Of a DNA stretch of 43,226 nucleotides, positions 17,274-19,951 are shown piece by piece. A model generated the notes under the pieces. It saw nothing but the letters and a program-made list of their open reading frames with translations, was not told the origin of the DNA and did no database searches. Every line of letters starts with the position of its first letter. Within the stretch, counting starts at the first letter, position 1. Both the position numbers and the translations under genes were made by a program. The stretch is from an uncultured Caulobacterales bacterium (lineage in GTDB: Bacteria; Pseudomonadota; Alphaproteobacteria; Caulobacterales; Maricaulaceae), in the NCBI GenBank assembly GCA_937923965.1, contig CALDTL010000033.1, positions 1 to 43,226 on the forward strand. Direction: 5' to 3'.

Positions 17274-18770
17274 ATGTCTAAAAAGAAGAACAAACCCTTT
17301 CGTCCCAAGGCCCGCCGCCCGCGCGGTTTTGAAGATCGTGCCTCTGATGTTTTGCGCGCCGAAGCCCGCTTAATTAAAGCGGCTTTCTCCGTCTATGATC
17401 TGCACGGCTTTGAGCCGCTGCAAACACCCGCTTTTGAATTTGCAGACGCGCTGGGCAAATTTTTGCCGGATGAGGATCGTCCGAATGTTGGCGTCTTCGC
17501 CCTGCAAGATGATGATGAGCAATGGATGAGCCTGCGCTATGATCTGACCGCGCCCCTCGCCCGCTATGTGGCTGAGAATTATGACGCGCTGGCAAAACCT
17601 TATCGCCGCTATCAAGCGGGCAGCGTCTTCCGCAATGAAAAGCCGGGACCGGGACGGTTTCGCGAGTTCACACAATGCGACGCTGATAGTGTCGGCGCAG
17701 CAGGCGCGGCGGCCGATGCCGAGATGATTATGCTGGCCGCAGAGGTCATGCGCTCCGCCGGCCTCAAAGACGGGCAATATGCGATCCGAGTGAATAACCG
17801 GAAATTACTCGACGGTATTTTGGAGAGCTCAGGCGTGCCTAATACAGAGGCTGGGGCCACACAGCGCCTGCAAGTTCTGCGCGCGATTGATAAGCTTGAC
17901 CGATTGGGCGCGAGCGGCGTGGAAGCCTTACTCGGCGAAGGCCGCGAAGATGAGTCCGGCGATTACACCGACGGGGCCAAATTGGGCGCGGATGGCATCA
18001 AAGCGGTCCTAGGCTTTACGACAGCCTCCGCAGAGAATCGCAGCGAGACCATTCAGGCCTTGGAAAAATTAGTGGGGCAATCCGAACGCGGACGAGCGGG
18101 CGTGGATGAACTCATTCAGATTGACACGATCCTCAACGCTGTTGGCTTTGGCAATGACCGCGTGACTTATGACACCTCTATCGTGCGCGGGCTCGGCTAT
18201 TATACCGGCCCCGTTTTTGAAGCGGAGCTACTGACGGAAATTAAAGACCGCAAAGGCCGAGCCGTGCGGATTGGGTCTGTTGGCGGCGGCGGGCGCTATG
18301 ACGATCTGGTCTCCCGCTTTCGCGGCCAAACCGTTCCTGCTACAGGTTTTAGCTTTGGCGTCTCCCGCTTTTTGACGGCACTCGAGCGAATGAGTGCTCT
18401 GGAGGCCGAGGTAAAGCCGCCCGTCGTGATTTGCGCCTTTGACCGCGCTTTGATGGGTGAATATTTCAAACTGGCGGGTGAGCTTCACGCACAAGGCATC
18501 CGCGCCGAAGTCTTCGTCGGCTCGGGCAATGTCACGAAACAAATGAAATATGCAGATCGCCGCAATGCCCAAGTCGCCGTCCTGATGGGCAGCGACGAAA
18601 TGGAGGCTGGCCAAATCACGCTGAAGGATCTTTATGAGGGTGCAAAAGCCGCCGCCGCGATTGAGTCCAATGAAGAATGGAAATCCTCTCGCCCCGCACA
18701 ACAAACCATCGCGCGCGCGCAATGGGTCACGGCCGTTAAAGAGATGCTAGCGAACGATCATCCTGCTTAG
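17274..18770 (+). CDS. hisS: Histidyl-tRNA synthetase (alphaproteobacterial non-canonical type)
   Basis: RRPRGFEDRASDVLRAE...SLRYDLTAPLARYVA...FRNEKPGPGRFREFTQCDADSVG...VRGLGYYTGPVFE...GGGGRYDDLVSRF. Confidence 0.95.
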   Translation: MSKKKNKPFRPKARRPRGFEDRASDVLRAEARLIKAAFSVYDLHGFEPLQTPAFEFADALGKFLPDEDRPNVGVFALQDDDEQWMSLRYDLTAPLARYVAENYDALAKPYRRYQAGSVFRNEKPGPGRFREFTQCDADSVGAAGAAADAEMIMLAAEVMRSAGLKDGQYAIRVNNRKLLDGILESSGVPNTEAGATQRLQVLRAIDKLDRLGASGVEALLGEGREDESGDYTDGAKLGADGIKAVLGFTTASAENRSETIQALEKLVGQSERGRAGVDELIQIDTILNAVGFGNDRVTYDTSIVRGLGYYTGPVFEAELLTEIKDRKGRAVRIGSVGGGGRYDDLVSRFRGQTVPATGFSFGVSRFLTALERMSALEAEVKPPVVICAFDRALMGEYFKLAGELHAQGIRAEVFVGSGNVTKQMKYADRRNAQVAVLMGSDEMEAGQITLKDLYEGAKAAAAIESNEEWKSSRPAQQTIARAQWVTAVKEMLANDHPA

Positions 18771-18808
18771 GTCAACCAAAAGAAGACCGACTGGCTGATT
18801 ACAACACA

Positions 18809-18913
18809 AGAAAAAACCCGCGCCGGGAAACCGAGCGCGGGTTTATCATGAGAACCACTTTATAAGCTATCGGCGCTGGGTTGGGGGAGGTTCCACCGAC
18901 AGCAAGGGTTCGT
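18809..18913 (-). ncRNA. Candidate small RNA with anti-SD loop and intrinsic terminator, convergent to hisS
   Basis: Minus strand: ATGACA (18947-18942), 16 nt, TATCTT (18925-18920) promoter-like; 7-bp stem CTGTCGG/CCGATAG with CCTCCCCC in the loop; 3' terminator AAACCCGCGC/GCGCGGGTTT followed by T-run. Confidence 0.6.
18811..18844 (-). terminator. Intrinsic terminator (minus-strand T6; may also end hisS on plus)
   Basis: 10-bp perfect stem AAACCCGCGC...GCGCGGGTTT; minus strand continues into TTTTTT. Confidence 0.8.
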
Positions 18914-19010
18914 CTGAATAAGATATATAGGAACGGGAACCTGTCATTACCTTTACTATTTTATGACAAAACGCCCATGTTTGTAGCCTCGAGTAACATT
19001 ATAAAAATTA

Positions 19011-19099
19011 GGCCGCATAAGCAGGACTAACGAAGGGAAAGCGGTGTCTCTGCTATGCGGCCTGCTTATTAAGCGGGAGTCCAAACGGCCTCCGCTTAA
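19011..19099. repeat. Two adjacent intergenic inverted repeats (hairpins)
   Basis: GGCCGCATAAGCAG (19011-19024) with CTGCTATGCGGCC (19050-19062), 13 bp plus one bulge; TTAAGCGGGAG (19069-19079) with CTCCGCTTAA (19090-19099). Confidence 0.75.
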
Positions 19100-19264
19100 G
19101 TGGGAACTAGTTTCTATCTCTGCCTTTACAATTAACGTATGACAGCATTGTGACGCTGGTATGAAACCTATGTCACACTTCCTCGTAAATTCCTTGGCGC
19201 GCGAGAATAAATTGCCTGCCCCGCATGTCTTGACCTTAACGTCCATCAAGCACAGATGTTCCTC

Positions 19265-19951
19265 ATGGCCCGTCTTGACCTTAAACTGCTGCCCGTCACG
19301 CCTTTTGCGCAAAATTGCTCTTTGCTTTATGATATCGACACGCTCGAAGGTGTGCTGATTGATCCTGGCGGAGAAGCGGGCCGCCTCAAGGAAACTCTGG
19401 ACAAGCTCGGGATTACGCTCAAAGAAATGTGGCTCACCCATGGGCATTTGGATCATGCCGGCGGGGCAGATGAACTGCGCGACGCCCTTGGCGTCTCTGT
19501 CATCGGTCCGCACAAGGACGATCAATTTTGGATGGACGGCATCACCGAACAATGGACTCAATATGGGCACCCGGGCATGGGCCGCGCCGTCGTCCCTGAT
19601 CGCTACTTGGAAGACGGCGACACGCTTGAGTTATCGGGTGTGGAATTTCATGTGCTACACACGCCGGGCCATACGCCGGGCCATGTCGTCATATATAATG
19701 CCGAGATGAAAATTGCCTTTGTCGGAGATGTCTTGTTTCGCGGCTCTATCGGGCGCACGGATTTCCCCAAGGGCAATCACCAGCAACTCCTAGATTCCAT
19801 AACAGATAAGCTTTGGCCGCTGGGAAATGATATGCGTTTCGTTCCCGGTCATGGACAAATGAGTACATTTGGACAGGAACGTAAAGACAATGCCTTTGTC
19901 GCGGATGACGTGATTGGGCGAACCGCGCCCAATAGCGCGGGTCCTGGCTAG
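19265..19951 (+). CDS. MBL-fold metallo-hydrolase (glyoxalase II-like)
   Basis: WLTHGHLDHAGGADELR...HVLHTPGHTPGHVV...FVGDVLFRGSIGRTD...FVPGHGQMSTFG. Confidence 0.93.
   Translation: MARLDLKLLPVTPFAQNCSLLYDIDTLEGVLIDPGGEAGRLKETLDKLGITLKEMWLTHGHLDHAGGADELRDALGVSVIGPHKDDQFWMDGITEQWTQYGHPGMGRAVVPDRYLEDGDTLELSGVEFHVLHTPGHTPGHVVIYNAEMKIAFVGDVLFRGSIGRTDFPKGNHQQLLDSITDKLWPLGNDMRFVPGHGQMSTFGQERKDNAFVADDVIGRTAPNSAGPG

Follow-up and report, generated by a model that had tools for sequence, protein, structure and literature searches.

Between hisS (positions 17274-18770) and a gene for a glyoxalase II-like MBL-fold hydrolase (19265-19951; Pfam PF00753), both on the plus strand of the 43,226-nt stretch of DNA analyzed here (the window), lies a segment that raises a simple question: what does its minus strand encode, and what controls it? 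The initial annotation proposed a minus-strand small RNA unit without an open reading frame, and the elements of that unit are all present at the stated place. The sole same-strand reading frame of at least 20 aa that starts in or just before the predicted transcript is 26 aa long, and the long minus-strand frame at 18956-19570 runs antisense to the MBL gene. We describe 18809-18914 on the minus strand as a predicted, conserved small RNA gene with its own promoter and terminator. We call this gene sRNA1; its transcript would be about 106 nt long, the conserved -10 element giving an estimate of its 5' end and the terminal T run marking its 3' end.

Folding of 18808-18913 gives -46.6 kcal/mol (z -6.4), a value equalled by none of 200 shuffled sequences. 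The upper hairpin (18866-18903) has a 10-bp stem with arms GCUGUCGGUG (18903-18894) and CGCCGAUAGC (18875-18866), closing an 18-nt C-rich loop, GAACCUCCCCCAACCCAG (18876-18893), with the core CCUCCCCC. The 7-bp pairing CTGTCGG/CCGATAG described earlier, with a 22-nt loop, is present in this stem, and the folded hairpin is larger than that description. Below the hairpin, a basal stem joins the 5' part of the RNA (about 18911-18904) to the region before the terminator (18859-18852). The strong terminator with T6 is found as described, at 18844-18811, with the stem AAACCCGCGC/GCGCGGGTTT. The C core of the loop is kept in all nine genomes aligned, in keeping with a conserved loop compatible with anti-Shine-Dalgarno pairing. 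We also considered whether a GGA in the loop might mark a CsrA sponge, and rejected this reading on finding that the GGA is not kept across all orthologues.

A lack of conservation in relatives had been named among the conditions that would refute the reading; orthologues with covariation are found, and the reading is not refuted on this count. An initial DNA search across 60 related genomes gave matches within the same genus; the relatives compared include several draft genomes. Orthologues of sRNA1 occur in all eight of the closest relatives, which are all of the relatives with HisS at least 89% identical. In an alignment of the window with seven of these (G005, G014, G013, G011, G009, G008 and G002), the consensus fold retains each of the helices described above, from the basal stem and loop hairpin to the terminator. 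Across the 29 pairs, 91.4% of cells are paired and nine pairs have changed on both sides, compared with a mean of 4.1 in shuffled alignments and with no shuffle of 500 reaching nine. When partners are slid out of register, pairing falls to 35-47%, a control that somewhat favors the structure because the structure was derived from the same alignment. The double-sided changes, which are most abundant in the terminator helix, are the firmer evidence.

A covariance model built from these eight sequences, R1, scores its training set at 80-110 bits and matches G010, which lies outside that set, at 53.4 bits (E 3e-9, covariance-model E-values being rough). All remaining loci in the 137 genomes of the family score at most 34.8 bits, many of them short and terminator-like, and this search yields no clear member beyond the close relatives. 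G028 has one weak and possibly diverged copy, upstream of its MBL gene (L133:972-1060, minus strand; 16.3 bits), where a hairpin AACAGGTT...AACCTGTT with ACCCCCAGCCCAG in its loop precedes a strong terminator.

The orthologues also show which neighbor matters. Convergence with hisS, as described initially, holds in the window but is broken in most close relatives. In G009, decarboxylase-like and ABC1-kinase-like genes (named from their translations) stand between sRNA1 and hisS, and in G010 about 174 kb separate hisS from the sRNA-MBL pair, which adjoins a gene whose translation reads as peroxiredoxin-like. In every orthologue, however, the MBL-fold hydrolase gene has sRNA1 upstream of it in divergent orientation, an adjacency seen in nine genomes. 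The constant neighbor is the divergent MBL gene, not hisS.

Inspection of the interval from the MBL start to sRNA1 revealed a second candidate gene, sRNA2, on the same strand and just upstream of sRNA1 (about 19001-19116, minus strand, with an estimated 5' end and a predicted RNA of about 115 nt). It has two hairpins, the second of which is the terminator (19010-19063): AGGCCGCATA...TATGCGGCCT, with CUUUCCCUUCG in the loop, followed by T5. The fold has a z-score of -4.5. In the 12-bp terminator stem, 94% of cells are paired and seven of the 12 pairs have changed on both sides, and the terminator loop is C-rich in all eight genomes that carry the gene. Seven of the eight relatives conserve sRNA2; G002 lacks it yet retains sRNA1, so the pair is not obligatory. 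The initial annotation was right that sRNA1 is a free-standing gene, but in presenting it as a lone unit it overlooked this second gene as well as the Pho-box-type elements described below and the MBL neighbor. We regard sRNA1 and sRNA2 as a tandem pair of predicted small RNA genes.

The promoter of sRNA1 differs from the ATGACA-N16-TATCTT arrangement proposed for it. Both hexamers are present (18947-18942 and 18925-18920) but they do not appear to serve as -35 and -10. The conserved -10 is TATATA (18924-18929, minus strand), 4 nt upstream of TATCTT, with an invariant A at 18928. ATGACA is only 12 nt from TATATA and, as the upstream alignment shows, overlaps the third of three repeats in 11-bp phase that make up a conserved element at 18938-18971 on the minus strand (first G of each at 18967, 18956 and 18945). 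The corresponding array before sRNA2, detected by alignment, pattern and weight matrix, has four such repeats, GTGAC/TTCAT/GTCAC/GTCAT (19139-19176, minus strand). In the upstream alignments the repeats fall at columns 22, 33 and 44 for sRNA1 and 28, 39, 50 and 61 for sRNA2, an exact 11-bp phase in each case, and at both promoters the G of the last repeat lies 17 columns upstream of the invariant A of the -10 (18928 for sRNA1 and 19126 for sRNA2). Transcription is predicted to start some 10-14 nt beyond this A. The sRNA2 repeats match (G/T)TCAY-N6, and in most relatives those of sRNA1 read GTCAT/GACAA/GACAG.

We asked where else such repeats occur. A two-repeat pattern has 19 matches in the window's own genome (G000) compared with two in the reversed control, and in this genome as well as in G014 and G028 a porin gene beside pstS has double boxes ahead of it. 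The three-repeat pattern KTCAYN6KTCAYN6KTCAY has 22 matches across 16 genomes, against zero in the reversed control, with the sRNA2 promoter as the sole match in its own genome. Allowing up to one mismatch, 0.18 such arrays would be expected by chance in the window. Matches in relatives stand before phoU in two genomes, before a metallophosphoesterase gene in two genomes and in one phoX intergenic region. We take the metallophosphoesterase gene to be plcP-like, although its profiles say only that it is a calcineurin-like phosphoesterase related to LpxH. The repeats before sRNA2 are identical to these Pho boxes of the clade. A separate conserved three-repeat Pho-type site, in L202 (G014) and L197 (G005), is followed within about 300 nt by a gene whose product is proline-rich and TonB-like.

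A weight matrix trained on the sites at these Pho genes alone, leaving out the sRNA promoters, scores the latter quite differently. The sRNA2 promoters reach 12-21.7 (21.7 in the window), which places them in the top 1e-5 to 9e-5 or so of background positions; the sRNA1 promoters score 1.6-11.1, which corresponds to the top 1e-4 to 3e-3. Since the background includes the sites themselves, each fraction is an upper bound. The genome also encodes PhoB, which scores above its curated cut-off. The published PhoB consensus is CTGTCAT-N4-CTGTCAT (PMC2573895), and the PhoB box takes the place of the -35 element; of 33 Sinorhizobium meliloti boxes with mapped starts, 16 are positioned 22-25 nt upstream of them (PMC3616915). 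The spacing from the repeats to the predicted sRNA starts fits this geometry. The promoters of the Pho regulon (pstS, phoU, phoX and plcP) likewise carry GTCAY repeats in 11-bp phase in place of a -35, in contrast to which the repeats here precede predicted non-coding RNAs. Measured against such a promoter, sRNA2 has the full arrangement, with four repeats, and sRNA1 has the phase and the spacing but only part of the sequence. Control of sRNA2 by PhoB is a well-supported prediction, and control of sRNA1 a less well-supported one.

These features suggest the following model, to which we assign a probability of about 0.6: a PhoB-controlled pair of trans-acting sRNAs with C-rich loops, encoded between hisS and the MBL gene. 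Each RNA would have its own activator-type promoter, on which a regulator of the PhoB/OmpR family, most likely PhoB, would bind the 11-bp-phased GTCA-type repeats that stand in for the -35 element. Scarcity of phosphate would then lead to synthesis of both RNAs, each closing in its own intrinsic terminator and holding open a C-rich loop, CCUCCCCC in sRNA1 and CCCUU/CCCC tracts in sRNA2. Base pairing of the loops with G-rich stretches, most often Shine-Dalgarno regions, would repress the mRNAs concerned. Of this model, the sequence analysis itself establishes the two gene units with their folds, covariation and terminators, the kept loops, the geometry of the promoters, the match of the sRNA2 repeats to the clade's Pho boxes and a PhoB encoded in the genome; transcription, binding by PhoB, and mRNA pairing with its consequences are inferred. 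The complete version of this proposal, in which PhoB directly drives both RNAs and they lower translation of Shine-Dalgarno-led mRNAs under scarce phosphate as part of the Pho response of the clade, seems to us to fall a little short of an even chance.

The loops of sRNA1 and sRNA2 resemble those of characterized RNAs, which makes repression in trans their most likely mode of action: the cytosine-rich loop of GsrN pairs with G-rich mRNA leaders (PMC5869019), and the C-rich sequences of NfeR1/ar14 (PMC10746234) and SisA/ar8 (PMC12559287) pair with G-rich leaders or Shine-Dalgarno regions. By this analogy, the loops here probably bind the ribosome-binding sites of mRNAs. A search of the draft genome limited to perfect pairing found no complement of ACCUCCCCC at a start codon. 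Perfect 9-nt complements number 16, none of them just upstream of an ORF start, and many fall in a dispersed palindromic repeat, CACCTCCCCCGC...GCGGGGGAGGTGG. Copies of this repeat with GCGGGGGAGGTGG arms occur on contigs C43, C85, C102 and C105, in pairs 130-160 bp apart.

How else might the locus be explained? One alternative is that the segment holds nothing other than a bidirectional hisS terminator and regulatory DNA of the MBL gene, with no stable sRNA. The terminator hairpin is indeed near the hisS stop, and the plus strand, too, carries a short run of T. The upper stem, loop and upstream element, however, are conserved with covariation where the neighboring gene is ABC1-kinase-like or peroxiredoxin-like instead of hisS, and we consider this explanation highly improbable, the least likely of those discussed here. 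A different alternative accepts the C-rich-loop sRNAs as real and trans-acting but places sRNA1, or both genes, under another OmpR/PhoB-family regulator such as CenR, in which case the role could possibly be, for example, in envelope stress instead of phosphate supply. The reported binding site of CenR, TGA-N8-TGA, likewise has an 11-bp phase (PMC9275681), and the regulator of sRNA1 is less certain for this reason; the repeats found before sRNA1 in most relatives fit the Pho matrix poorly, and their low scores leave room for such a regulator at that promoter. Set against this are the sRNA2 repeats, the same as those at the phoU, plcP-like and phoX genes, and the phase and -10 spacing common to both sRNA promoters. 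We judge this reading unlikely, though it is the most credible of the alternatives.

The remaining alternative is that the RNAs are diverged members of a named family: ar14/cuckoo/CcsR, ar8 MmgR/SisA, AbcR or GsrN. The design is shared, with exposed C-rich sequence followed by a terminator and, in some families, tandem copies. Nevertheless, motif and model tests already disfavor this view, which we regard as very unlikely, and the initial annotation, which did not recognize the RNA as one of a named family, is borne out. Covariance models from Rfam 15 give no match at gathering threshold in the window; below gathering, where matches are at chance level, the best is Burkholderia anti-hemB (RF02837; 18.4 of 49.5 bits), an RNA that also has a hairpin with a CCUCCC loop and then a terminator but is similar in design only. 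The ar14/cuckoo RNAs (NfeR1, CcsR) are likewise alphaproteobacterial, with short stems and a conserved C-rich anti-Shine-Dalgarno loop motif, and CcsR occurs in tandem copies. They share an identical CCUCCUCCC motif, with three hairpins in NfeR1 and a DUF1127 gene associated with CcsR (PMC10746234, PMC10253847). The present locus instead has CCUCCCCC, a single C-rich loop in sRNA1, an association with the MBL gene and Pho-type promoters. CCUCCUCCC is absent from the window and from the aligned orthologues of both sRNAs, and the neighbors (hisS, ABC1-kinase-like, peroxiredoxin-like and MBL hydrolase genes) do not include the DUF1127 gene of the CIN1 locus.

Similar considerations apply to ar8 (MmgR, SisA-D; RF00519), which resembles the present RNAs in having one core anti-Shine-Dalgarno stretch and a terminator. 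Its 10-mer UUUCCUCCCU is located in an unpaired stretch, and linkage to an N-formylglutamate amidohydrolase gene is usual (PMC12559287). No match to this 10-mer occurs in the sRNA region even with one mismatch, and RF00519 matches neither sRNA1 nor sRNA2 in the window. The loop CCUCCCCC is a cytosine-rich loop near the 5' end, as in GsrN. The Caulobacter RNA, however, has a SigT/EcfG promoter and, in most species, a position at the GSR locus (PMC5869019), and neither is seen for sRNA1: the SigEcfG promoter (GGAAC-N16/17-CGTT) is not found upstream of it in the window, and identity with GsrN was rejected. A lone SigEcfG-like GGAAC-N16-CGTT is present at the MBL start (19238-19262, minus strand; 0.73 expected by chance) and is not kept in relatives. 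Because CCUCCUCCC, UUUCCUCCCU and an upstream GsrN-type promoter are all absent, sRNA1 and sRNA2 are predicted to form a new sRNA family of a known kind, absent from Rfam, that would work like ar14, ar8 and GsrN without belonging to them.

The interest of our preferred reading, PhoB control of the pair, is that the promoters link a covariation-backed family absent from Rfam to a named regulon. In the openly available subset of the literature, we found no direct PhoB-driven anti-Shine-Dalgarno sRNA in alphaproteobacteria, and those sRNAs of S. meliloti that were found to be induced by phosphate starvation had no evident PhoB site (PMC2573895). Phosphate- and PhoB-dependent expression is a direct hypothesis, for which a cultured relative would serve as a test system.

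Beyond the close relatives, hisS lies near the MBL gene in several genomes, and the interval between the two holds other putative small transcripts. In more distant relatives, putative transcripts divergent from the MBL gene were noted at L124, L128, L133, L134, L135 and L136. One has an TCTCTCTCTT tract before its terminator and TTCAG-N6-TTCAG upstream, another has TCCCYTTCGAACTGGC before its terminator, and several have 11-bp TGTCA repeats. The DNA upstream of the MBL gene in distant relatives also gives sub-threshold Rfam matches, to MmgR at 24.8 of 41 bits and to SorX at 22.1 of 46.6. An order-wide search with TCCCYTTCGAACTGGC, a motif that several relatives carry upstream of their MBL gene, returned mostly scattered one-mismatch matches; its exact occurrence at the MBL locus was confirmed in a few genomes only, all of the same family.
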